64,000 nucleotides of DNA from a bacterium (GTDB taxonomy: Bacteria; Actinomycetota; Acidimicrobiia; Spongiisociales; ZC4RG35): positions 48,173-112,172 of the forward strand of contig JAPPFC010000035.1 of NCBI GenBank assembly GCA_028824015.1, read 5' to 3'. Under the pieces are notes generated by a model. The model was not told where the DNA came from, did no database searches, and saw only the letters and a program-made list of their open reading frames with translations. Of the stretch, positions 11,686 through 51,159 are shown in pieces; the stretch's first letter is position 1, and each line of letters starts with the position of its first letter. Both the position numbers and the translations under genes were made by a program.

Positions 11686-12879
11686 TCAAACCTGGCCGCC
11701 AACCACCAACCGCACGGTGTCGCGGGCTATCAGCGACTCCTCGTCGGTGGGGATCACCCACGCAGAGATCGGGCTCCCGGCGGCGGAGATCCGCCGTTCC
11801 CCCTCACCCCCGTTCCGGGACAGGTCCAGCGCCAGGCCCAGGTCCTCCAAGCCTTCGAGCGCCCTTCGCCGGACCTCGGGACTGTTCTCTCCGATCCCGC
11901 CGGAAAAGACCACGCCATCGCACGGCGCCGCCTGCACCAGGAACGCCCCCAGGTAGCGGCGGATGCGGTGGACGAAGACCTCCACCGCCAGGGCGGCGGA
12001 GGGATCCCCGGCGCGGGTCGCCTCGGCCAGCCTCCGGAAGTCCGACGAGATCCCGCTCAGGCCCAACAGGCCTCCCTCTCTCTCCAGGCCCCGGCGGATC
12101 TCGGATGCCGACAGGCCCGCCTCCAGGAGGTGAAACACCACGGCTGGGTCGAGGTCGCCGCTCCGGGTGCCCATCACCAACCCCTCCAGGGGGGTCATCC
12201 CCATCGAGGTGTCCACGGCCCTCCCCCGGCGGACCGCGCAGGCCGAGGCGCCCGCGCCCAGGTGGAACGTCACCAGGTTGGGGCGGGGCTTGCCCAGCAC
12301 CTCGGAAGCCCGCTCCACGAGATAGCGGTGGCTGATCCCGTGAAAGCCGTAGCGGCGCACACCGTGGCGTCTCCACCAGTGCGCCGGGACCGCGTACCGG
12401 TAGGCGCGCTCTGGAAGCGTCGAGAAGAAGGCGGTGTCGAAGACCGCCACGCCGGTCGCCCCCGGCAGCAGTGCCCCCGCAGCCTCGATGCCGGCCCGGT
12501 TGGCAGGATTGTGAAGGGGCGCCAGGGAGTCCAAGCCTTCGATCGTCTCCATCACCGCGGGGTCGATGATCACCGACGCCGAGAAGCGTTCCCCGCCGTG
12601 CACCACCCGATGACCCACCCCCACGATCTCCCGGGAGTCGGCCACCGGGGGGACCGGCCCCCACTCCAGCAGCGCCTCGACTATGCGTGCCACCCCGGAG
12701 TGGTAATCGGTGACCGAGACCTCCACCGCGGTCTCCCAGTCGCCCACCCGGTGCCGGTGCCGGGCGTTCGGCGCGCCGATCCCCTCAATGATCCCCTCCG
12801 CCAGACAGTCGCCCACCTCCACTCCGTACAGCTTGTACTTGATAGACGAACTGCCGCAGTTGATGACCAGTATGCGCAT
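11686..12879 (-). CDS. ackA: Acetate kinase
   Basis: A 397-residue ASKHA-fold kinase that interconverts acetyl phosphate plus ADP and acetate plus ATP. It starts MRILVINCGSSSIKYK, with the NxGSSSxK phosphate-1 motif. Other hallmarks are GHRVVHGGE, FDTAFF, YGFHGISHRYL, HLGAGAS, DTSMGMTPLEG and the late FSGGIGEN. These match AckA over its whole length (usual length about 400). Phosphotransacetylase is not next to it here. The Xsc gene at 21592-23325 makes acetyl phosphate directly, so this kinase could recover ATP from taurine-derived acetyl phosphate (inference). Propionate kinase activity is possible. Confidence 0.95.
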   Translation of the reverse strand: MRILVINCGSSSIKYKLYGVEVGDCLAEGIIEGIGAPNARHRHRVGDWETAVEVSVTDYHSGVARIVEALLEWGPVPPVADSREIVGVGHRVVHGGERFSASVIIDPAVMETIEGLDSLAPLHNPANRAGIEAAGALLPGATGVAVFDTAFFSTLPERAYRYAVPAHWWRRHGVRRYGFHGISHRYLVERASEVLGKPRPNLVTFHLGAGASACAVRRGRAVDTSMGMTPLEGLVMGTRSGDLDPAVVFHLLEAGLSASEIRRGLEREGGLLGLSGISSDFRRLAEATRAGDPSAALAVEVFVHRIRRYLGAFLVQAAPCDGVVFSGGIGENSPEVRRRALEGLEDLGLALDLSRNGGEGERRISAAGSPISAWVIPTDEESLIARDTVRLVVGGQV

Positions 12880-36782: not shown

Positions 36783-36797
36783 GATCCCTGGCTTGGT

Positions 36798-39700
36798 TCA
36801 GTTTACGGGTGGGGGCGAGAGATCGATGCGGAGTTGCGAGAGCCAACGGGACAAGTGGTCGGGGCTGACCCGATCACCCAGGAACTCGACCAGTTCCTCC
36901 TGGCGGGGCTGGCCGAAGGCGAGGCGATAAACAGCCAAGGACTTCCGCAACCGGGGCAGACTCACCGACTCACGGCTGAACGGCAGCAGCGGAACGAGGC
37001 GCTCGATCTTCGCCCGGCCCTGATGAAAGACCCAATACGGCACCATTTCCCCGTCGCCGGACCCTCTCTCGGAAGCTGCTCGCTCAAAGAGGACCTGCCA
37101 TGGGTCACCCTCCGGAATCCCCTCTCTCAACAGATCGGACCCCAGTTTCTCAGCGATGTTGCGGCGAACCGCGTGACATTTGTACCGGTGGACGCGACCC
37201 TCCCGCTGCTCCAAATCAACCGGACTGGCCGGAAGATTCCAGTGCACCACCGCATGGCACCACAGATGAAAGTCCAGTCCTTCCTGACCGACCGAGGTCG
37301 AGGTCAGCACAAACGGCCAGAAGGGTGAGTTGAAGGCGACCGAGACCGCCCCCACCCGGGCTTGACCACCTTCGGCGAGCGCCTGATCGCCAAACGCCAC
37401 CGCAAAGCGGGTGCGCATACGGTGCGCCTGCAGTATGTCGGCGTTGTCGTCCTCATTGCGACCAGGGATGTCCACCCGCAGCGCAGAGGTACGAAGCCTG
37501 AGCGCCTCCCCGATCTTGGAGGCGATCTTCCTGGCGGCCCTTGTCCGCTGGCTGGCGGCATCGAGGCTTACATAACCGAGCCAGTCGCGCAGCACATGAG
37601 CGTGCTCATCCAGCACGGACTGCAGGTTGCCGTCGACGCAATGACGTACCACCTCGCGCCAGTACGGGACGCTTCCCTCGGATTCGGCTTGAGGTGCGAC
37701 TATTGCAGTTACCTCCGGGGCGTTGAAAAAGCTCCTGAACGCCTCGGCGGCCCGAGCCGCGCTCGAAAGTACCGTCTTGTCAACGCCGGGAAGCCCCGCG
37801 ACCCTTCCGACTGCCCGCAGCGCACACTGGGCCGGTCCTCCGAGAGCCAGTTCCGCAAGCGCCTCATAAAGGTCCTCGGGAGGTCGGCCGAGAGGTTTCA
37901 AGGGATCCTCGGAAGTCTGGTGAGGAGCATTGGCGCCGTACTCGACCATCGCACGGGCCTCGGCGAGATGCGCCCGCAAGTTGCGATCGTCCCGATCTCC
38001 CACCCAAAACTCCGCCGCCCGATCAGCCAGCATCCGGTCGACCTGCGAAGAGTGCCCCAGGTGGTCGAGCAAAAGCGGCGCCGCCCAGTACCAACGCTGA
38101 TCAACCGGTCCGTCGGAACCCCTGTTGCCGGTCAAAGGCGCCAAAGCAGCCTCTATTCGCTTTGAGATAGCGGCGACCACCGCGTCGCGATCAGGCCGCG
38201 CGGGTCCCAGTTGTCGCGGGTCACCCAACTCGGCGAGGCTGGGACTCGGCCATACCAGCAGGAAGGTCGTCATGGCGGCGGCGCGACGACGACCCGTATC
38301 CTCCCCTCCGTCGCTCTCCGAGTCTGTCTGCTCCCTGGTGCGGAAAGCCAGTCGCCTGCCGCCGCGGCGCCGGTATTCGGTTGTGTAACCGTGATCGCGG
38401 CTCGCGTAGGCACGGCGTTCGGCTTCGAAGCTCACCAATGACGAAACCACCTTCGGCACTACCCGCCAACCGGAGAAGATCAAACGCTTGGTGAACCCGA
38501 GGGCCTCCGGAGTTTCATAGACCGAGCCGGTGTCGTAGTAGCGGATCGATGGCGGCACCCACAGAAGATCGAAGGCCCGGCGGCGTTCCAGGTCATCGAG
38601 CAGCCAGCGCAGCCGCCCGTTCTGGGGGTCGACCCGCTGGTAACGCTCCACCTCCTGCCAGCTAAGCAGCCCTGGACCCGGATCGAGCCCCAGGTCCTCG
38701 ACGAGTTGGCCTTCCGCGACGGCTCGCTCTATCGCTCGCTTGAGCTTGTAGTGCTCCATGAAGTTGACCAAGTACGGAGCGGACTTCCAGTACTCAGTGG
38801 GATCGTGGTGCCCGACCGCCCGCGCCAGATCGGCCAGGCGCAGATACGAGCGGAGGTCGGCGGACGCCAACGACACCGGGACTTTGGGTTCGGTGAGCAT
38901 CCCGTCCCGGTCGGGGGTGGCCGCTAGCCGTTCCGTCCTCGCCATGACCTGCCGCAGGTCCGATCCGATCTCACGGCAGATACCCGCCGCAGTGGCCAAC
39001 GGCGTCTCGGGGTCGGCGAAAGCAACCGACGCGGTGAGAGCCTGGCGGAGATCAACGAAACGACTCTCGAGTCTTTCGACCCCGGCCTCGTCCCCGTAGA
39101 GGAAACGACAGGTTTCCAAGAAGTCCCGGTAGTGGTCGGCGTCGGTGTCGTCGGCTGTCGTGTACATGCGGTAGGGAGTGGCCGACAGCAGCAGAGTACG
39201 GGTCGGCTGGCCGGTTTCGGGGTCGCAGTAGTCGAAGAGAGCCCGGGCTAGTTCCGCGGCCAGGTTTCCCGGTTCGGGCCGCAGCAGGTCCTTGAAGCGC
39301 TGAAACTCATCGAGCACCACCAGGTCGGGGCGAAGCGCGTCGATGCCGACGATCGCCATGACCCGGCGCACCTCCGCAATCAACTCCACCCGCAACCACC
39401 ATGTGCGGCCCCGGAAGCCATCCCCGCCGGCCAGGCGTTCGACGATCTCGTCGAACAGTTGGCGCAGGGGTCGCTTGCCTGCCCGTTCCCTCTCGGCGTC
39501 CACCTGTTTCATTCGGTCCGCGAACTCTTGGCGCGACACTTTGACCTGTGGGCGATACCACTCTTCCCACCTGCGAAGCCGCCTGTCCCGGTCAGCGCGA
39601 CTGCCCGCTCTAAGGCCGAACCAGAAAATCCAGCGGGCCCGTTTGCCCATGACCTCGGTGCCCCAATGTCTGCGGAGCAACGTGTAGGCGAGAGCCCGTT

Positions 39701-40139
39701 CTGAGAATCTGCCGGTGCTGGCGCCGAAGTTCAAGGATGTACCCGGAGTGATCGCCAGCAGATTGATGCCCGGACGGCCGTCCCGGTAGCCTTTGAGTTT
39801 CACCAGAGGGAGCATGGTCAGCCGGTCCACGTTCACGGGCGTCGGCTCGATGCCCTCGGGAACCAGCTTTCTCAGGTTCTGGCGGGCGATGGCCCCATTG
39901 GAGCACACGTAAACGATGTCATGACGCTTGTCGCCGGTTCGTCCCAGGTGGTCGATGACCTGCGCTATCACCCCCTTGGCGACATGGGTCTTGCCGAGAC
40001 CCACTTCGTCCGCCACCAGGAACCGGAGCGCGGGGTCGTTATCCGCGAACATACGCTGGAACGCCCATTCGGCCGTGCGTCGCTGAAAGTCCTTCAGATC
40101 GGCCATCGTGGTGGCCACGTCAACGCGCGACGCGGTCAC
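36798..40139 (-). CDS. Large SF2/SNF2-like helicase (DUF6361-PLD cassette)
   Basis: A 1,113-residue protein. The N-terminal motor has motif I DEVGLGKT (44-51), motif II as DEFQ (277-280) instead of DEAH, and motif III LLLSATPYR (317-324). The C-terminal motor has TSVGQEGLDF (about 948-957) and motif VI QREGRVHRY (about 978-986). In between is a roughly 600-residue insert of unknown fold. The layout resembles RapA/DrmD-like translocases. The GTG start overlaps the PLD stop by four bases. With DUF6361 and PLD it forms a compact cassette likely to act on foreign nucleic acid (inference). Restriction-type helicase is the main alternative description. Confidence 0.85.
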   Translation of the reverse strand: MTASRVDVATTMADLKDFQRRTAEWAFQRMFADNDPALRFLVADEVGLGKTHVAKGVIAQVIDHLGRTGDKRHDIVYVCSNGAIARQNLRKLVPEGIEPTPVNVDRLTMLPLVKLKGYRDGRPGINLLAITPGTSLNFGASTGRFSERALAYTLLRRHWGTEVMGKRARWIFWFGLRAGSRADRDRRLRRWEEWYRPQVKVSRQEFADRMKQVDAERERAGKRPLRQLFDEIVERLAGGDGFRGRTWWLRVELIAEVRRVMAIVGIDALRPDLVVLDEFQRFKDLLRPEPGNLAAELARALFDYCDPETGQPTRTLLLSATPYRMYTTADDTDADHYRDFLETCRFLYGDEAGVERLESRFVDLRQALTASVAFADPETPLATAAGICREIGSDLRQVMARTERLAATPDRDGMLTEPKVPVSLASADLRSYLRLADLARAVGHHDPTEYWKSAPYLVNFMEHYKLKRAIERAVAEGQLVEDLGLDPGPGLLSWQEVERYQRVDPQNGRLRWLLDDLERRRAFDLLWVPPSIRYYDTGSVYETPEALGFTKRLIFSGWRVVPKVVSSLVSFEAERRAYASRDHGYTTEYRRRGGRRLAFRTREQTDSESDGGEDTGRRRAAAMTTFLLVWPSPSLAELGDPRQLGPARPDRDAVVAAISKRIEAALAPLTGNRGSDGPVDQRWYWAAPLLLDHLGHSSQVDRMLADRAAEFWVGDRDDRNLRAHLAEARAMVEYGANAPHQTSEDPLKPLGRPPEDLYEALAELALGGPAQCALRAVGRVAGLPGVDKTVLSSAARAAEAFRSFFNAPEVTAIVAPQAESEGSVPYWREVVRHCVDGNLQSVLDEHAHVLRDWLGYVSLDAASQRTRAARKIASKIGEALRLRTSALRVDIPGRNEDDNADILQAHRMRTRFAVAFGDQALAEGGQARVGAVSVAFNSPFWPFVLTSTSVGQEGLDFHLWCHAVVHWNLPASPVDLEQREGRVHRYKCHAVRRNIAEKLGSDLLREGIPEGDPWQVLFERAASERGSGDGEMVPYWVFHQGRAKIERLVPLLPFSRESVSLPRLRKSLAVYRLAFGQPRQEELVEFLGDRVSPDHLSRWLSQLRIDLSPPPVN

Positions 40140-41971
40140 TGCGAAGCCTCATCCCGTGGCCGGACGCCTTCGGCCGTCACATCGCGTATGGCGTCCCAGA
40201 GTTCAGCAAAGCCCGGCGGCAGCGCATCGTCCCCCCGCAGGTCGGCGATGAGCGGGTGGAGTCCGACGAGTCTCAGCGGATCGCTTCTCATGGTTCGTAG
40301 CAACCGTTCCAACACCGCAAAGCTGATCGAGCCAGTTCCATCCGACGCCGACCGGTCTAGAGCCCTGGAGATTTCTCGGATGTCGAGTTGATAGGAGTCG
40401 TCGTAGAGGAGAGCCATCAGGTATCGCAGGAATCGCTCGGCGTTTCCGATCAGCGCCTTCAGAATCGCTCCGTCCCGGTGTTCGGGCACTCCGTCCAGAG
40501 GCACGGGGACCGCGAACCCGGTCCGCTCGCCGCTTTCGTGGGTTAATTCGAAGGCTAGGAACCCACTGAGTGCCTCAAGGCTTGTCTCGAAGCTCACCTC
40601 CAATGGCTCGGCCGGTTCGACCTGCCGCCGGTTGCCCGGGGTGGTGAACGGCCAGCAGTGAATCTCCACACCTTCGATGGCAGGCAGAGGCTTCTGAGAG
40701 TGGTATGTGACGGCCCACCCCTGGCTCTCGTCACCGCTTTCCTTCACCGTACCCTTCATCGCGAGACCGGCGATCTTCCGGCGCATTTGGTCAAGAGTCG
40801 AATCACCAGGGCCGTCAATGGCGGGTGGCTCGGGGGGAGGATGGTAGAGGTGGAGCAAGACACGCAAACCAGGATCGTCTCCATCGCCGTCCAGGAGTCG
40901 ATCGATACCCAACTCGGCGACCGGCCCTCGGAGTTCGGCCAGGATCTCCACGCCGCTGTTGAAGGCGGCCCAGGTGGCGTTAGCCGAACCCACGAACAGG
41001 CGGGCTTCATCCCCCGTCTCGAAGGCGAAGACTTTGGCGTGGACTCCGACCAGGGGCCTGCCGGGGTCTTCAGGGGAGGAAGTTGACCCCGACGCACCTT
41101 CCTGTTCAAACGGGCTGCCGTCGTCGAAGACGTACTTTTCGGTGTTGGAATCGAGAGGGCTGGGCGACAGTCCGTCCAGCGCTCCCTGCCGGCTCACCAA
41201 GGTGTCCACTCGCGCGGTATGCACCTGCGTGAAGAAGTTATCGGACAGGAAAGGCGAGATGATCAGCGAACGCCGAGGGTTGTCCGGAAACGGAGATCTG
41301 ACCTGCTTGAGCCCGAACACATGGATGGTGAGGTCATCGACGCCGGCGGGTAGCTCGAACCGTGCTGCTTGGAGGGTTCTTGTCAGCCACTCCACCCGTT
41401 TCACGTGGTCAGGCGTTACCTCCCCAACGGCGTTGTTCAGCAGTCCCTCGAACAGTTCCCCGACCGCGTTGACCGCTGCGCCGCGACCATCTGGCGTCTC
41501 GTCAAGTCTCAGCAACGTGTCCCAACTCTCGTCGAACGTCAGGTTGCGACTGGCGATGAGCACTCGATGACGCTCAGCCGTCTCATTTTTACCTGAATCG
41601 CCGGATGGTTGGTAGCGCAGCACCCATACCTTGGGATGAACGATCCCTCCTTTTGGGGCCGTCACCGGGACCACCACTCCCTCGAGGAATGCGAATGCCC
41701 TGCTGGGCGGTGGCAGGCTGATCTCTCCGGCCTCGCTAAAGACGGTGATCTTGTGGGCATGCGCCCGTAGTGCGTGGATCAACTCCACCGGCGTCTGACC
41801 GCCGGCCTCAGCGGTGGTGTCCCGCAGGCCGGCCAGGGCGAATGCGGCGGGCGCCGCCAACAGCGCCCCCAGGTTGAGGGTAAAGGTCACCGCCATGGCG
41901 GACTCCAGCTGGAACCCGGCCGGGGGGCGCATCGCATCGATCAGCGTCAGCCGGTTGGTCGGAAGGAGCAT
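40136..41971 (-). CDS. Phospholipase D-like (HKD) nuclease-type protein
   Basis: A 611-residue protein with two HKD half-sites. The first is VHPKVWVL (His112, Lys114) followed by SRN at 141-143. The second is VHAKVFAF (His311, Lys313) followed by SAN at 329-331, the standard H-x-K ... S-x-N pattern. The C-terminal 250 residues match nothing I recognise. No signal peptide is present, so a cytoplasmic nuclease is more likely than a secreted lipase. ATG overlaps the DUF6361 stop by one base (TGATG) and the gene overlaps the helicase by four. PLD-type nucleases pair with helicases in DISARM and related systems. Confidence 0.85.
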   Translation of the reverse strand: MLLPTNRLTLIDAMRPPAGFQLESAMAVTFTLNLGALLAAPAAFALAGLRDTTAEAGGQTPVELIHALRAHAHKITVFSEAGEISLPPPSRAFAFLEGVVVPVTAPKGGIVHPKVWVLRYQPSGDSGKNETAERHRVLIASRNLTFDESWDTLLRLDETPDGRGAAVNAVGELFEGLLNNAVGEVTPDHVKRVEWLTRTLQAARFELPAGVDDLTIHVFGLKQVRSPFPDNPRRSLIISPFLSDNFFTQVHTARVDTLVSRQGALDGLSPSPLDSNTEKYVFDDGSPFEQEGASGSTSSPEDPGRPLVGVHAKVFAFETGDEARLFVGSANATWAAFNSGVEILAELRGPVAELGIDRLLDGDGDDPGLRVLLHLYHPPPEPPAIDGPGDSTLDQMRRKIAGLAMKGTVKESGDESQGWAVTYHSQKPLPAIEGVEIHCWPFTTPGNRRQVEPAEPLEVSFETSLEALSGFLAFELTHESGERTGFAVPVPLDGVPEHRDGAILKALIGNAERFLRYLMALLYDDSYQLDIREISRALDRSASDGTGSISFAVLERLLRTMRSDPLRLVGLHPLIADLRGDDALPPGFAELWDAIRDVTAEGVRPRDEASQ

Positions 41972-43212
41972 CAGCGATCAGCCGCCAACGCGTCGGCGAT
42001 CTCGCCGACGTAGTTCTTGGCGATGGACCACCGGTATCCAAGCTGGCCGCCGACCGCGCGTTGGTTCCAGTTCTCGAGCGCGGTTAGGTAGGCCAGGCGG
42101 GCCCGGTTCCCCTTCAGGCGGATCTCCCTCAGGCGGATCTGTTCGTGAACGCTCGGATCTTCCCCAAAACCCTCAGGATTCTCAACCGCGGAACGGACGA
42201 TCCCGGCTATGAAGTCCCGCGTGCTCCGCCTAATGCGGTACCTGTGGAGAAGCGCCCAGCAGGCTGGTAGGTCATCGGCCCACAATCGAAGTTCCTCCTG
42301 CCGACTTCTGACCATCTTGACCCAACGCTGTAGGCGACCATGTTGGCTCTCCTCTAGCCTGGAGGTGTCCCATCTGAGTTTCTTATGAGCCCGGCGCGCT
42401 ACCAGGACGTTGTATACGTACTGCGGACCGGCGGTCAACTCGGAGAAGCACCGGGCGTGCTGTACCACTTCCGTTAATTTCTCGGGCATGCCTTGCCTGG
42501 ACACGTCCCACGGATATTCGCAGGGGGCGGCGAGGTCGGGCTGTGCGCACAACCAGGCAAGAAGGGTGCCCGGCTGTTTTAGCTGAACGTTGCCGCGCAG
42601 AGTCTCTGCTTCGTCTCGGCTCAATTCGAAGGTGATGTCAGCCTCCAGGAAGCGTTCAGGAGGATCAGGCAGCGGAGCCCACATCGAACTGCTCGGGTCA
42701 GTAACGCTGCCGTCGTCATCGAGAGCCGCCGGGATACCGGCCCCGGCCGCCCGCTGGGCATACTCGCCGAGACTGAGGGGAATTCGCCGCAATCCCCACT
42801 CCCCGAGACCTCCCCAGTAGATGTCACTGGGCATGCGCTTCAAGTTCCGACCGGCCTGGTAGCCGATGACACCCTTACCGGGCCCCAGATGGCGCAAACG
42901 TTCGATGAGCAGCGCCTCGTAGTGGCGAAGACGCCGGAAGAAGTCCGCGGGTGCAACCCGCTCTGCCTCGAGACGCTGGAAGATCCACGGCAGGAACATG
43001 AAATATCGCAGCCTGGTGTGGATGTAGGAGGTACCGGGGTGCAGCATCTCGGAGAAGGCGTCGCGCACCGACCCCAGACCCAGGACATCGAGGGTGGCGG
43101 GCTCCTGGAGTGAGCGCAACAGCGTGGCGACTCGCTCCGTGGCGGCGGCGTCAAAGTCAAGCCACCCAAGCGAAGAGGCGGGGGAGTAGGAGGAGGGGGA
43201 GTAGGTGGTCAG
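41971..43212 (-). CDS. DUF6361 family protein, first gene of the cassette
   Basis: About 413 residues. The N-terminus reads SLGWLDFDAAATERV and continues into LGLGSVRDAFSEMLHPGTSYIHTRLRYFMFLPWIF, which I recognise as DUF6361. No ATG, GTG or TTG lies between the upstream in-frame stop and GWLDF; the next TTG (43119) would remove that conserved motif. I therefore take a CTG at 43212, which has GAGGT four bases upstream. No catalytic motif is known for the family. The gene is coupled to PLD by TGATG. Codon use is less GC-rich than in the metabolic operons, suggesting transfer. Confidence 0.72.
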   Translation of the reverse strand: MTTYSPSSYSPASSLGWLDFDAAATERVATLLRSLQEPATLDVLGLGSVRDAFSEMLHPGTSYIHTRLRYFMFLPWIFQRLEAERVAPADFFRRLRHYEALLIERLRHLGPGKGVIGYQAGRNLKRMPSDIYWGGLGEWGLRRIPLSLGEYAQRAAGAGIPAALDDDGSVTDPSSSMWAPLPDPPERFLEADITFELSRDEAETLRGNVQLKQPGTLLAWLCAQPDLAAPCEYPWDVSRQGMPEKLTEVVQHARCFSELTAGPQYVYNVLVARRAHKKLRWDTSRLEESQHGRLQRWVKMVRSRQEELRLWADDLPACWALLHRYRIRRSTRDFIAGIVRSAVENPEGFGEDPSVHEQIRLREIRLKGNRARLAYLTALENWNQRAVGGQLGYRWSIAKNYVGEIADALAADR

Positions 43213-43229
43213 GCAGACCTCATGCGACC

Positions 43230-43254
43230 GTCACACTAACAACGGAGGTGTGAC
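43230..43254. promoter_or_regulatory. Inverted repeat upstream of the DUF6361 cassette
   Basis: GTCACAC and GTGTGAC are exact complements separated by 11 bases, ending 18 bases before the CTG start. A ten-base palindrome ACAGTACTGT begins at 43253. The position fits an operator for the cassette. No regulator gene is adjacent. Confidence 0.45.
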
Positions 43255-43318
43255 AGTACTGTGTTGTCGCCAAGGACCGCAGAGTCACAGGCTTATGGCA
43301 ACCCCAAAAGGGCCAGAT

Positions 43319-45483: not shown

Positions 45484-45512
45484 TTATTCAAAATATTTTG
45501 TATCAGTATACT
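45484..45512 (+). promoter_or_regulatory. ars promoter with ArsR-type operator
   Basis: TATACT at 45507-45512 is a good -10, with a weak -35 (TTATTC) 17 bases upstream. Between them lies a perfect 12-base palindrome CAAAATATTTTG (45489-45500), well placed for repression by the ArsR domain encoded just downstream. Transcription would start about three bases before the ATG at 45522, so the mRNA is probably leaderless. The patch is strikingly AT-rich. Confidence 0.55.
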
Positions 45513-45521
45513 TTGATTTGT

Positions 45522-46877
45522 ATGCCAACCTTGGAGGAAAGAGCCGGTCTCCACGCCGCCCTGGGCGATCCCGTCCGGCTGGCGGTGGTGGACGCCCTCT
45601 CGCTGGGCGATCTGGGAGTGGAGGAACTCAGAGGGATCACCGGCGTGGAGGGGAACCTGTTGGCACACCACCTCGGAGTCCTCGAGGACGCGGGACTGGT
45701 GCGGCGCCGCCCCTCAGAGGGGGACCGGCGTCGCCGGTACGTCTCCCTGCGCCCCGAGAGCCTCGCCGGCCTGGTGGCCTCCCCCGTGCTGGAGGCCGGC
45801 CGCGTGTTGTTCGTGTGCGTCCACAACTCGGCGCGCTCGCAGTACGCGGCCTCCCTGTGGAGCGAAATGACCGGCCGCCGGGGTCTCAGCGCCGGCACCC
45901 GGCCGGCCGAGACGGTCCACCCCCTGGCGGTGAAGGCGGCCGCCCAACTCGGAATAGATCTCAGCCGGGCGGTTCCCAAGGGATACGACCGGATCGACCC
46001 ACCCCCGGACCTGGTGGTCTCGGTCTGCGACCGAGCCTGGGAATCGGGGAACCGCTTCAACGCCCGGCGCCTCCATTGGTCGGTGCCGGATCCGGTTGCA
46101 CGGGGCGATCCGTCGGCCTTCCTGGGATCGTTCAGGGAGATCACCGCCCGGATGGAACGGCTCATCCAAGCAACCGGACGCCCGCCCACCCCAAACCGCA
46201 CGATTAGCCGACCCCCAAGACAAGGAGCACCCACCGTGGCAGCCGAACTCTCGACCGAAGATAAATTCCTGCTTCGCCAGGCGGCAGTCAGGTTGCAGGA
46301 GAGGTTCAAGGGCAAACTCAACACCGAGACCATCGAGCGGTTCATGACCGACTCCCTCGACCAACTGATGGAGAAGGCCACCACCACCACCTGGATAGTG
46401 CTACTCGCCGAGCGGTTCGCCTCCGAGCGGTTGCGGGCCCTGGTGCGCCTCCAGACCAATCCCACCCTCCTGAACCCCAGCGTTCTCTTCCTGTGCGTGC
46501 ACAACGCCGGACGGTCCCAGATGGCAGCCGGGTACATGCGCCTTCTTTCGGGAGGAAAGGTGGACGTGTTCACCGGCGGCTCGGAGCCTGCCGAGGACAT
46601 CAACCAGACCGCCGCCCAAGCCATGCTGGAGAAGGGGATCAACATCAGAGGTGAGATCCCCCAGCCGTGGTCGGACGAGATCGTCCGGTCCGCCGACGTG
46701 GTGGTGACCATGGGGTGCGGCGACGCCTGCCCGATCTATCCCGGTAAGCGCTATGTCGACTGGGAGGTGGACGACCCTGCCGGCCGCACACTGGAGGAGA
46801 TCCGTCCCATCCGCGACCACCTCGAACAACGGGTCCGGGGCCTCCTGGCCGACCTGGAGATCGAAACGGTCTGGTGA
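45522..46877 (+). CDS. ArsR regulator fused to two arsenate reductase/LMW-phosphatase domains
   Basis: A continuous 451-codon frame with four parts. Residues about 1-75 are an ArsR winged helix (LGDPVRLAVVDAL, LAHHLGVLEDAGLVRRR). Residues about 95-220 are a low-molecular-weight phosphatase/ArsC domain with CVHNSAR as the P-loop and WSVPDP as the acid loop. Residues about 245-300 are a three-helix segment typical of actinobacterial ArsC. A second ArsC domain follows with CVHNAGRSQ and TMGCGDACPIYPGKRYVDW. An internal GTG at 46235 is preceded by AAGGAG eight bases upstream, so the second half may also be made alone. It would reduce arsenate and sense arsenite; no arsenite exporter is nearby. 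Confidence 0.85.
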   Translation: MPTLEERAGLHAALGDPVRLAVVDALSLGDLGVEELRGITGVEGNLLAHHLGVLEDAGLVRRRPSEGDRRRRYVSLRPESLAGLVASPVLEAGRVLFVCVHNSARSQYAASLWSEMTGRRGLSAGTRPAETVHPLAVKAAAQLGIDLSRAVPKGYDRIDPPPDLVVSVCDRAWESGNRFNARRLHWSVPDPVARGDPSAFLGSFREITARMERLIQATGRPPTPNRTISRPPRQGAPTVAAELSTEDKFLLRQAAVRLQERFKGKLNTETIERFMTDSLDQLMEKATTTTWIVLLAERFASERLRALVRLQTNPTLLNPSVLFLCVHNAGRSQMAAGYMRLLSGGKVDVFTGGSEPAEDINQTAAQAMLEKGINIRGEIPQPWSDEIVRSADVVVTMGCGDACPIYPGKRYVDWEVDDPAGRTLEEIRPIRDHLEQRVRGLLADLEIETVW

Positions 46878-46895: not shown

Positions 46896-48182
46896 CTACG
46901 GGCCCAGAACCGCCAAGGGAACCACCCGCACACCATCAGGGCGGCTGTAGCTGTATCGGCCTCCTGTGATCACCAACATCTGGGCAAGGCTGGTGGCCCG
47001 TCGTTCGGTAACCCGATCCCGCAACTTCAGCAAAGCCGCCGCCGCCTGGTCGATGGCCTTGGCCCCGCCTAGTTTGACTTCCGCCGCGATCCAGCCCCCC
47101 TCCCGAGTCTCGATCACTGCGTCCACCTCCAGACCGCCATAGTCCCGGTAGTAATAAACCGAGGCGTCGTGAGCCTGAGCGTAGATGCGCAGGTCGCGCA
47201 CCGCCATCGACTCGAACAGGAAACCGAAGGCTTCCAAGTCTTCCAGGTACCTTTGTGGACCGACTCCCAGCGCGGCAGGCGCCAGGGAGGGGTCCACGAA
47301 GTGCCGTTTCGGTTTCTGCAGGAGACCCTCCCTCGACCGAAGATGGACATTCCATACGGGTAGATCTTCTACCACGAACAGGCGGCTCAATGCCTCCATG
47401 TAAGTCTTGACCGTGCCCCTGTCAAGCGGAGTTTGCCCTTCGGTCTCTTTGGCCAGCTTGTCAAGACCGACATGATTCGAGACGTTGCGCGCCAATGACT
47501 GCATCAGACGCATAACTCTGTCGGGGCTCCGACGGACGCCATCCACCGCTGACACATCCACACGACAGATGTTGTCCACATAACTGCGGACTTGTCTCAT
47601 GGCGTCCCCCACTGGCAACTCGATGAACTGCGGCCAGCCGCCGCGACATGCGGCATCCACCAAGTCCGCCACATCCACATCTGTCTCCACTACCGGGCAT
47701 TCCCAAGCTTGGAGCATCTTAAACATTACGCCGAGGGACGCCTCTCCCGTTGACAGTCCGATTTCGTGGAGAGACATCGGCCGCATTCGCACGCGGCTGA
47801 TGCGCCCTGCCCCCGAGTGTCTGGTGAATTCGTCAGGGGGAACCGCGGAACCGGTGAGAATGAACTGCCCGGGCAACCCCCGTCGATCGCATGCCGCGCG
47901 CACCAAGTGCCACAGATCGGGAACCCTTTGCCATTCGTCGATGAGACGAGGAGTGGGGCCATCGAGTAACAACCCGGTGGCCTGGGTCGCTATCTGCCAG
48001 AGGTCGGGACGTTCCTCCAGGTACACCTCGCTTTGAGCGAAGTGCTGTCCGGTCCAAGTCTTACCGCATGCCTTGGGACCTTCGATGAGGACGGCCCGTG
48101 CAGCCTTCAGGACACTCGGGATTTCATGGTCGACAACCCGATCACGATAAGTCGGCAGAGGAGAAGAATTTGTCGAAAACAT
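46896..48182 (-). CDS. AAA ATPase with DUF4143 domain
   Basis: A 428-residue protein. The N-terminal ATPase has Walker A as GPKACGKTWTG and Walker B-like RLIDEWQRVP, then FILTGSA. The C-terminal DUF4143 nuclease-like domain has FGFLFESMAVRDLRIYA, GLEVDAVIE and AAEVKLG, the D-x(n)-E-x-K pattern. The start is GTG with no ribosome site, close to an AT-rich TATAAA, so the message may be leaderless. Such proteins are common in accessory DNA; some are thought to act in toxin-antitoxin or DNA-damage contexts, but no function is established. Tandem repeats lie just upstream. Confidence 0.85.
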   Translation of the reverse strand: MFSTNSSPLPTYRDRVVDHEIPSVLKAARAVLIEGPKACGKTWTGQHFAQSEVYLEERPDLWQIATQATGLLLDGPTPRLIDEWQRVPDLWHLVRAACDRRGLPGQFILTGSAVPPDEFTRHSGAGRISRVRMRPMSLHEIGLSTGEASLGVMFKMLQAWECPVVETDVDVADLVDAACRGGWPQFIELPVGDAMRQVRSYVDNICRVDVSAVDGVRRSPDRVMRLMQSLARNVSNHVGLDKLAKETEGQTPLDRGTVKTYMEALSRLFVVEDLPVWNVHLRSREGLLQKPKRHFVDPSLAPAALGVGPQRYLEDLEAFGFLFESMAVRDLRIYAQAHDASVYYYRDYGGLEVDAVIETREGGWIAAEVKLGGAKAIDQAAAALLKLRDRVTERRATSLAQMLVITGGRYSYSRPDGVRVVPLAVLGP

Positions 48183-48463: not shown

Positions 48464-49942
48464 CTAGCGAGAGGCTCCGGACCGGGCGGGACGGGCCTTC
48501 TTGCCGTTGAGCATCGTGCCGATCGGCGTGTAGCGGACGAACGCCTGGTAGGAGAGGAGCGAGACGGCCGTGACCACCCCACAGATCAGGAGGAACTTGA
48601 CGCCGGCGAAGAGATCCCAGTCGTACAGGAATGCCTGGGCTGCGACCACCAGGGGGAGATGCACCAGGTAGACCCAGTAGGCGGAGTCGGACAGGTACCG
48701 GATCCCCCGGCGTTCGCGGGGAAGCAGCACCCGGAACAGCCCCATCAGGCCGAAGCACATGCCCCAGGCGTACAGCACCTGCAGGACCGACGCCAGCGGC
48801 CATTGGAACTTAACGAAGGTGAAGTGCAGCCCCGTCGGCAACAGGACCATGACGGAGACCGGCAGGAACAGCCACCAGGGTTTCCCGATCGTGTCGACCA
48901 GGAGCTTTCCCTTCCCGCTCCGGCGACCGTACATCAACGCTCCGAACGTGAAGAACGTGGCGTAGTAGGCCAGAACGTGGGGAAGGGGCAGGAGGGCATC
49001 GGAGGTGTCCGACCCGAAGATGGGGTAGGACCCACTGCCACCCATCTCCAACTGCGGGATGAGGGTCAGCGGGATCATCAGCCACATGACCCTCCCCGGC
49101 CACACCCCCCGACCGGGCTCCCGCCGATCGGCGATCGCCGCCACCGCGGCGAATCCCGCCACCAGCCACAGGAGGAACCAGAGGAACCACAGGTGATGGA
49201 GGTGCTCGATCTGCGTCAACCGGTCCTCCTCGGAGTCCTTCGCGCCCTCCGCCCAGCCGGGAATGTCCGACCACTCCATCGACTCGGGAAGAGGATCCCT
49301 TCCCTCGTGGGCGACCAGCAGATCGGTCGCCTCCTCGTGACCGAAGTGGAAGGCAAGCCCCAGGGGAGTCTCCCCCTCGGAGGCGTCAGCCGTAACCGCC
49401 GGCTCCGCACCCCGGGAAATGAGCAACTCCACCATCTCGGCGTGGCCGGTGAAGGCGGCGGCATGCAGAGGGGTCCACCCGCCGGGCTCGGTCCGCGTCT
49501 CGATGTCCACGCCCCGGTCCAGCAATCGCTCCACCCCCGAGAGGTCTCCAACGAACACCAACCCGATGATGTCCCCGGACTCCACCATCGGCTCGACCTG
49601 CGCGATCGCCGCCCTCTCCCCCACCCAGTCCACCGCCGGCACCAGGGTCACCAGACCGATCAGGAGCGGCAGGGCCACCCGCCGGAGACGATGGCCGAGA
49701 AGCGACCGCAGCCCGCGCCGCCGCCACAGAAGGGCGGTGAAAAACCCACTCATCAGGAAGAACACCGGCATGCGGAACCCGTGCACCGCCCACAGGAACT
49801 CATCGTAGGGACCGTTGAGGCTTGAGGTCCGGTCCTGCACCCACCACGGCGCCGGGAAGAAGGAGAGGGCCGCGTGCAGCCCCACCCCCAGCAACATCGC
49901 AAAACCCCTCAGCGCGTCAAGGTCGTGCCGGCGACCCTCCAT
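48464..49942 (-). CDS. Acyltransferase-3 (OpgC-like) membrane protein with embedded ankyrin repeats
   Basis: A 492-residue protein. It begins RRHDLDALRGFAMLLGVGLHA and RMPVFFLMSGFFTALL, the AT3/OpgC opening with its catalytic-region histidine. After three helices, residues about 129-213 form about two and a half ankyrin repeats (DLSGVERLLDRGVDIE, GWTPLHAAAFTGHAEMVELLISRGAEP, GETPLGLAFHFGHEEATDLLV). The remaining helices of the AT3 core follow, ending near SYQAFVRYTPIGTMLNG. AT3 proteins transfer acyl groups to sugars or lipids. The ankyrin segment sits in a loop, not at an end. ATG at 49942 is preferred over a TTG six codons upstream. Confidence 0.85.
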   Translation of the reverse strand: MEGRRHDLDALRGFAMLLGVGLHAALSFFPAPWWVQDRTSSLNGPYDEFLWAVHGFRMPVFFLMSGFFTALLWRRRGLRSLLGHRLRRVALPLLIGLVTLVPAVDWVGERAAIAQVEPMVESGDIIGLVFVGDLSGVERLLDRGVDIETRTEPGGWTPLHAAAFTGHAEMVELLISRGAEPAVTADASEGETPLGLAFHFGHEEATDLLVAHEGRDPLPESMEWSDIPGWAEGAKDSEEDRLTQIEHLHHLWFLWFLLWLVAGFAAVAAIADRREPGRGVWPGRVMWLMIPLTLIPQLEMGGSGSYPIFGSDTSDALLPLPHVLAYYATFFTFGALMYGRRSGKGKLLVDTIGKPWWLFLPVSVMVLLPTGLHFTFVKFQWPLASVLQVLYAWGMCFGLMGLFRVLLPRERRGIRYLSDSAYWVYLVHLPLVVAAQAFLYDWDLFAGVKFLLICGVVTAVSLLSYQAFVRYTPIGTMLNGKKARPARSGASR

Positions 49943-50238
49943 GGCCACCGGGGATGTCAAAGGGGGCCTGCTCCGGATGATCTAGTCCACCATCGTACTA
50001 ACAACGGAGACTCATTGACAGGGGCAGCACCAGACCCTATCCTCCCTTTGTCCCTTGGCTCTACGCCGCTGACGGACGAGACAGAGCACGGGCAATCCAC
50101 GTCAAATGACTGTCAGTCGGCCTGATGTCAAGGCACCTCTGCCCGGCATGTTCTAAGGCTCCGTTGATCCTCGAAATCACAGAACGCTGCTGATTCAATC
50201 GCTCGGACACAGCCATTTCTTTTAGCATTTCCTAGCCA
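49943..50238. other. Intergenic stretch between acyltransferase and toxin-antitoxin genes
   Basis: About 300 bases, less GC-rich towards the right. It carries no convincing ORF, hairpin with T-run or RNA motif. It forms the divergent control region of the AT3-ankyrin gene and the RES-Xre module. Confidence 0.6.
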
Positions 50239-50291: not shown

Positions 50292-50627
50292 ATGGTTAGC
50301 TTTCCACACCTCTTGAACCACTTATATGAGGGCGCGGTTGTTGACACTGCAGATCTGGCGAGGGTCAGCGCCACCCATCCCCGCAGTGTTGTCCGCTGGC
50401 GTGCCAACAACGCCACCCCCCGACGGCAAACCGAAGAACGCCTGCTGGAATTGCGGGCTGTAGTAGACCTAACCAGGGATGTCATGCGGGATGACGCGGC
50501 CCGTTCCTGGATGCGTGCACCCAACCCCGATCTGGGCTATGAGAAGCCTCTCGATCTTGTAGCCACTGGCCAATATAAGCGCGTGATCGACCTGTTGCTG
50601 GCGCTGGCTGAGGGTGTTACAACTTGA
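50292..50627 (+). CDS. Xre/MbcA/ParS-family antitoxin
   Basis: A 111-residue protein. An N-terminal helix-turn-helix region (VDTADLARVSATHPRSVVRWRANN) is followed by the toxin-binding C-terminal domain with the family end SWMRAPNPDLGYEKPLDLVATGQYKRVIDLLLAL. The gene overlaps the RES gene, as is usual for these pairs. It would bind and block the RES enzyme and, with it, the operator at 50241-50257. It is shorter than many Xre antitoxins but looks intact. Confidence 0.85.
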   Translation: MVSFPHLLNHLYEGAVVDTADLARVSATHPRSVVRWRANNATPRRQTEERLLELRAVVDLTRDVMRDDAARSWMRAPNPDLGYEKPLDLVATGQYKRVIDLLLALAEGVTT

Positions 50628-51159
50628 GGTGAACGTTTTTGATCCAAAATCGGTGGCCCAGGCGCCGCCGCGCTCGCTGGCAGCTACCGGTTATCGCAAT
50701 CAGACCCCGGGTTATGAAGTCCGGAGCGGGGAGGGCGCCAGGCGCTTTGGAGGCCGATTCAACCCGCCGGACAGTTTCCCTGTCCTTTATCTCTGCACGA
50801 CTCGAAGATGTGCTTCTGCTGAACTGAAACGGAACGCCTACCGGCAGCGGGTGCCTCTCGACCAGATCCTCCCCCGGGAGTTGTGGCGCATTGACGTCGA
50901 GGTGGGCCGAGTGCTGGATCTTACCGACCTCTTTACTCGTGACCAGCTTGGGATCGAGTGGCAGGATCTGATCCCCGATGAATACCGGCTGACCCGAGCC
51001 ATCGGAGAAGCTGCTTACGAACAGCAATTCCAGGCTGTTCTCACACCATCCGCGACTGGTGTTGACAATGTGGTTGCAGTCTTCCCTGAGAATCTTGGAG
51101 GATCGGTACTACGAGTCCAGCTAGTGGAGGTCTGGAAAACCTCGGGGGACCTTCCATAA
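50614..51159 (+). CDS. RES-domain toxin (NAD+-degrading family)
   Basis: A 181-residue RES-family protein. The conserved arginine-containing segment GEGARRFGGRFNPP and VLYLCTTRRCASAELKRN match the RES active-site region. Members such as MbcT consume NAD+ by phosphorolysis. The start is GTG at 50614 (overlapping the antitoxin) or GTG at 50629; neither has a strong ribosome site, consistent with coupling to antitoxin translation. The 3' end lies next to a truncated acyltransferase copy, so the module may have entered at that site. Confidence 0.85.
   Translation: MLQLEVNVFDPKSVAQAPPRSLAATGYRNQTPGYEVRSGEGARRFGGRFNPPDSFPVLYLCTTRRCASAELKRNAYRQRVPLDQILPRELWRIDVEVGRVLDLTDLFTRDQLGIEWQDLIPDEYRLTRAIGEAAYEQQFQAVLTPSATGVDNVVAVFPENLGGSVLRVQLVEVWKTSGDLP

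Follow-up and report, generated by a model that had tools for sequence, protein, structure and literature searches.

Three genes at the locus and their identity

The stretch analysed here (hereafter the window) comprises 64,000 nucleotides of contig JAPPFC010000035.1, from the genome assembly GCA_028824015.1 of an actinobacterium (Acidimicrobiia; Spongiisociales; ZC4RG35). Within it, positions 36798–43212 hold a cassette of three genes encoding a DUF6361 protein, a phospholipase-D-like (PLD-like) protein and an SNF2-type helicase (Table 1), which is almost certainly the already named phage-defence system Azaca (ZacA–ZacB–ZacC). Indeed, the three proteins match the corresponding PADLOC-DB models over nearly their full length, with 348.5 bits for ZacA (profile positions 3–394 of 396), 464.7 bits for ZacB (1–582 of 586) and 1043.3 bits for ZacC (4–1016 of 1019). 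The genes are adjacent, on the same strand and in the order A-B-C, and the tight coupling described in the first-pass annotation is present, zacA and zacB overlapping by TGATG, zacB and zacC by GTGA. That annotation had also held that the cassette fits no named system, while stating beforehand that a match to an already named defence system would refute the idea; such a match is what we found, as the Zac models account for all three genes and their order, and the claim of novelty has to be abandoned. Nothing essential separates the cassette from Azaca, the probable CTG start codon of zacA and the location of the cassette on the chromosome being local details. The original Azaca paper is that of Millman et al. 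2022, in which anti-phage activity was reportedly observed. In the excerpts at hand, ZacC is given as the Azaca helicase in PMC12278908, and a table of PMC10952713 attributes a PLD-like domain to Azaca; no mention of DUF6361 was found in the open-access literature searched.

Table 1. Features of the Azaca locus (window coordinates)
Feature	Coordinates	Strand	Evidence
zacA, DUF6361 protein, 413 aa	41971..43212	-	PADLOC ZacA, Pfam DUF6361; start from homology
zacB, phospholipase-D-like, two HxK half-sites, 611 aa, ATG start	40136..41971	-	PADLOC ZacB; invariant residues
zacC, SNF2-type helicase/ATPase with helical insert, 1113 aa, GTG start	36798..40139	-	PADLOC ZacC; model and fold matches
zacA upstream region, 7-bp inverted repeat and block conserved in same-site relatives	43213..43318	-	alignment with three same-site relatives
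Whole block missing from the same site in G001	36783..43307		blastn block ends and empty-site sequence

The three proteins

ZacA exceeds by far the Pfam cut-off for DUF6361 (185.3 bits vs. 25). Its reading frame contains no ATG, GTG or TTG between the upstream stop and the TTG at 43119, its listed start, but initiation at this TTG would remove conserved N-terminal residues. Because homology to the closest ZacA homologue among the matches listed (P0001, 91% identity) and to same-site relatives in other genomes of the genus (see below) extends upstream of the TTG, zacA probably starts at an unusual CTG (43210–43212). P0001 begins MTTYSPASSLGW, and at the position of its start the window reads CTG-ACC-ACC-TAC, with GAGG plus five bases before the CTG. 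Among the relatives, the gene of G002 also has CTG there, with GAGG five bases upstream, while those of G003 and G005 have ATG. The predicted structure of ZacA is all-helical and possibly represents a new fold.

In ZacB, the Pfam domain PLDc_2 scores only 15, under its cut-off of 27, while residues H112, K114, N143, D151, H311, K313, N331 and E342, and hence both HxK half-sites, are invariant among 44 sequences. The alignments to solved proteins include the DNA restriction enzymes BfiI and NgoVII, and there is a weak alignment between the second HxK half-site and the segment of BfiI, a PLD restriction enzyme, that holds its active site.

ZacC reaches the Pfam cut-off for Helicase_C (25.9 bits vs. 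23.5) but not that for DEAD (18.4 vs. 26), and is placed among the SNF2 helicases in an excerpt of PMC10925250. Its ATPase motifs are conserved, K50 being the Walker lysine. The DEFQ motif reported by the first-pass annotation lies at D277–Q280 and is invariant among 58 aligned ZacC sequences. The insert that it described is likewise present, though nearer 480 residues (about 405–885 in the predicted model) than the 600 or so proposed, and is shared by the family profile (PADLOC ZacC). In the model, ZacC takes the form of an SNF2-type ATPase into which a large, helical segment is inserted.

Upstream of zacA, the inverted repeat noted in the first-pass annotation exists over 7 bp (43230–43236/43248–43254), but the palindrome is not kept in three same-site relatives; what is conserved in their alignment is the neighbouring block, and the region as a whole is a possible promoter region. 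In G005, this block is tandemly duplicated (L086, near 12440–12500). As for codon use, said to be less GC-rich than in the flanking operons, the GC content at third positions (GC3) is indeed 0.74–0.76 in the three genes vs. 0.83–0.89 in the five nearest flanking genes, but two other window genes are equally low (DUF4143, 0.69; BipA, 0.75).

Comparison with other defence systems

The pairing of a PLD-like protein with an SNF2-like helicase recalls DISARM, and weak local matches to DrmD (near motif VI) and DrmC (near the second HxK site) are observable. A DISARM derivative that would have lost DrmA, DrmB and the methylase is nevertheless extremely improbable and was rejected: the DrmD match is local only, and the NCBIfam scores (DrmD, 40.3 bits; DrmC, 25.2 bits) are far under the cut-offs (610 and 133), whereas the Zac models match end to end. 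Moreover, the scanned neighbours of the cassette include neither DrmA or DrmB nor a methylase and bear Pfam names of metabolic and transport families. On this point the first-pass annotation, which had set the cassette apart from DISARM, was right. A PLD-like domain is also listed for Mokosh (PMC10952713, excerpt), but searching PADLOC up to an expect value (E) of 10 gave no Mokosh model for the three proteins, the content of the library for Mokosh being unchecked. Similarly, PADLOC lists no Zorya family for ZacC, as regards ZorD. Finally, Hachiman (HamAB) also joins a helicase to a nuclease, but consists of two proteins and has a Ski2-type helicase (excerpts of PMC10925250 and PMC12278908).

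Co-occurrence and distribution of the three genes

For the first-pass annotation, rare co-occurrence of the three genes elsewhere would have counted against its reading. The genome collection yielded 63 ZacC loci, 46 of which had at least 3.4 kb of upstream sequence and were counted, the 17 near a contig end being left out. By tblastn, both zacA and zacB lie upstream of ZacC in 44 of these 46 loci, the two exceptions having a piece of zacA only (L024) or neither gene (L038). Even among the 17 contig-end loci, three have both genes and two have zacB. Within the phylum, DUF6361 was detected in eight of the 396 genomes sampled: four have the full set (the window's own genome, L111, L112 and L115), two have loci truncated by the end of a contig (L110, where A and B are present, and L113) and two hold lone truncated pieces (L114 and L116). 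In L114 (8138–10483), the truncated zacA (query residues 21–138 only), which looks like a decayed Azaca remnant, adjoins a PIN_8-domain gene, with a cytosine-methylase-like open reading frame (ORF) farther on.

Relatives of ZacC are also found on plasmids (tblastn, E up to 1e-30), in 45 of 72,556 records; in six of these, a single match spans 80% or more of the query. Among phage records (50,697; E up to 1e-10), one has a ZacC relative. Annotations show the DUF6361–PLD–helicase order on three plasmids, one archaeal and two alphaproteobacterial. On the latter two (L126, 1–5789; L127, 1–5282), genes for a PD-(D/E)XK nuclease and a UvrD-type helicase stand directly upstream of zacA, while L126 also has a DNA methyltransferase gene about 30 bases after zacC.

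Genomic neighbourhood

To assess enrichment near defence genes, 127 neighbouring proteins were collected from 29 loci, taking at most two ORFs from the flank with lower coordinates and at most three from the opposite flank (150–900 residues, greedy ORF calling, so that some may be spurious). The controls were 108 proteins, drawn from five actinobacterial genomes (nine stretches). The Azaca neighbours match 89 PADLOC models at E up to 1e-20 and the controls two, which supports the defence assignment of the first-pass annotation; these 89 are models, not distinct proteins, as one family can be described by several models, and the contrast is indicative rather than exact, the test loci belonging mostly to other phyla than the controls. 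Among the 25 models listed (one or two proteins each) are SoFic, a type I restriction enzyme and methylase, a type IIG enzyme, BrxH and DrmD, as well as PsyrT, DarG, a cyclase, a reverse transcriptase, DpdF, HmaA, AbiE and candidate families. The control matches are mad3 (three proteins) and a CARF protein (one).

In the window itself, the direct neighbours of the cassette are, by Pfam, an acyl-CoA dehydrogenase, a glyoxalase, a sulfate permease and an ABC transporter. The nearest defence candidate is a DUF4143/AAA_14 ATPase at 46896–48182 (PDC-S01, 229.2 bits), relatives of which occur near Azaca in nine of the 75 loci compared. Farther on, 50614–51159 encodes a protein (75.3 bits) with a RES domain, a toxin-type domain. 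Two other ORFs have composite products: 48464–49960 combines acyltransferase and ankyrin-repeat matches in one frame, an unusual pairing, and 45498–46877 encodes one chain with an ArsR-type helix-turn-helix and two low-molecular-weight phosphatase (LMWPc) stretches.

One chromosomal site across the genus

In five other genomes of the genus (G001–G005), the site was located through the flanking ABC permease, and the stretch beyond it was read. Three of them (G002, G003 and G005) have A-B-C at the same place, with proteins 67–81% identical to those of the window, compared with 90–95% for the acyl-CoA dehydrogenase and 89–92% for the permease. An in-frame TAG occurs in the zacC of G002, whose genome contains another ZacC locus elsewhere, likewise accompanied by A and B. 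G001 lacks the block, 77 bp replacing 6525 bp of the window, and a ZacC search gave no match elsewhere in its genome. In G004, only a C-terminal remnant of ZacC persists; two ORFs follow it (L087, 8805–11401), one encoding a C5-cytosine methylase (132.9 bits), the other a Vsr-like endonuclease (52 bits). No acyl-CoA dehydrogenase gene was detected in this stretch. Fragments of another Azaca, perhaps belonging to a single copy, lie at two contig ends of the same genome.

Between the window and G003, synonymous divergence (dS) is 0.28–0.33 in SulP, the acyl-CoA dehydrogenase and the permease, and 0.56–1.03 in the Zac genes. Moreover, the closest relative differs by gene, zacC being closest to that of G002 and zacA to that of G003 (82% of bases in both cases). 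We read this as whole or partial alleles having been exchanged at a fixed site, the alternative being a locally raised substitution rate. In the Zac genes, nonsynonymous divergence (dN) amounts to roughly one fifth to one quarter of dS, in the acyl-CoA dehydrogenase to less than a tenth. This comparison omits SulP against G005 and GlyoxI against G003 and G002, where the extracted frames contain 6–27 stops, and is rough for ZacC against G002 (four stops). By these ratios, the Zac genes are constrained but evolve faster than their flanks.

These distributions also bear on whether the cassette could be a housekeeping DNA-repair operon. Helicase–nuclease pairs serve repair too, and the immediate neighbours in the window are metabolic and transport genes, but two of the five genomes have no cassette, or just a remnant, at this site, DUF6361 is rare in the phylum and the neighbours at other loci are rich in defence genes, all of which make a repair operon very improbable. 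The earlier assignment to defence thus stands, on the near full-length PADLOC matches, the defence-rich neighbours elsewhere and the absence or replacement at one site.

Predicted mode of action

We give about an even chance to a mechanism in which a ZacC translocase and a ZacB nuclease destroy invading phage DNA. ZacC, because of its SNF2-type fold, would be a double-stranded DNA translocase, moving along DNA through ATP hydrolysis, and ZacB would cut the DNA that it handles. By analogy with BfiI-like PLD enzymes, ZacB would be a metal-independent nuclease, its two half-sites forming one active site within a single chain. ZacA might act as an adaptor or sensor licensing the cut, which is a guess since a structural match is lacking. 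The conserved Azaca set comes without a methylase, so that self and non-self would have to be told apart by the state of the DNA rather than by a dedicated methyl mark. The complete picture, i.e., a methylation-independent, ZacA-licensed DNA shredder in which an SNF2 translocase bearing a family-specific helical insert (some 480 residues) feeds a metal-independent, single-chain PLD nuclease with two BfiI-like half-sites, is offered only tentatively and is rather unlikely to hold in every part.

Several points weigh against this mechanism. The BfiI match of ZacB, taken alone, is not significant. The ZacC model is of moderate quality (predicted local distance difference test, 79.7), its template-modelling scores are near 0.2 and residues 949–985, which contain motif VI, fall below 50. 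A fold search with the ZacA model returned no usable structural match. In excerpts of the literature, Azaca is listed with an unknown mechanism by a 2026 review (PMC12926258) and among Actinobacteria-enriched systems of unknown mechanism by a 2023 survey (PMC10482375).

Two other modes of action have to be considered. The first is a Hachiman-like abortive infection, in which ZacA and ZacC would respond to phage replication or DNA damage by releasing ZacB onto all DNA of the cell, including that of the host. Consistent with it are the helicase–nuclease pairing, the lack of a methylase in the set and the sensor helicase of Hachiman, which frees its nuclease upon DNA damage (PMC12278908, excerpt), but the two helicases belong to different groups (Ski2 vs. 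SNF2; PMC10925250, excerpt), and we regard this possibility as unlikely. In the second, ZacB would cut RNA and stop the phage by destroying transcripts, ZacC acting on transcription complexes in the manner of RapA. This RNA-polymerase-associated SNF2 protein is both the best PDB sequence match of the ZacC profile (E 3e-5) and the top Foldseek match of its model. The sequence match is, however, confined to one stretch around motifs V–VI, many chromatin SNF2 proteins score on par with RapA by VIA, and the ZacB alignments to BfiI and NgoVII involve enzymes that cut DNA, so that an action on RNA appears improbable.

Altogether, the first-pass annotation was a good observation of a known system: the cassette itself is not new, a false "new system" is taken off the list and a precise name is given in its place. 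For destruction of phage DNA by ZacC and ZacB, as for the mechanism of Azaca in general, the locus provides several handles, namely the conserved residues, the prediction of metal-independence and a fixed site that occurs in empty, allelic and replaced forms. With its diverged, mosaic, absent and replaced versions, this site constitutes a natural series within the genus of the window.
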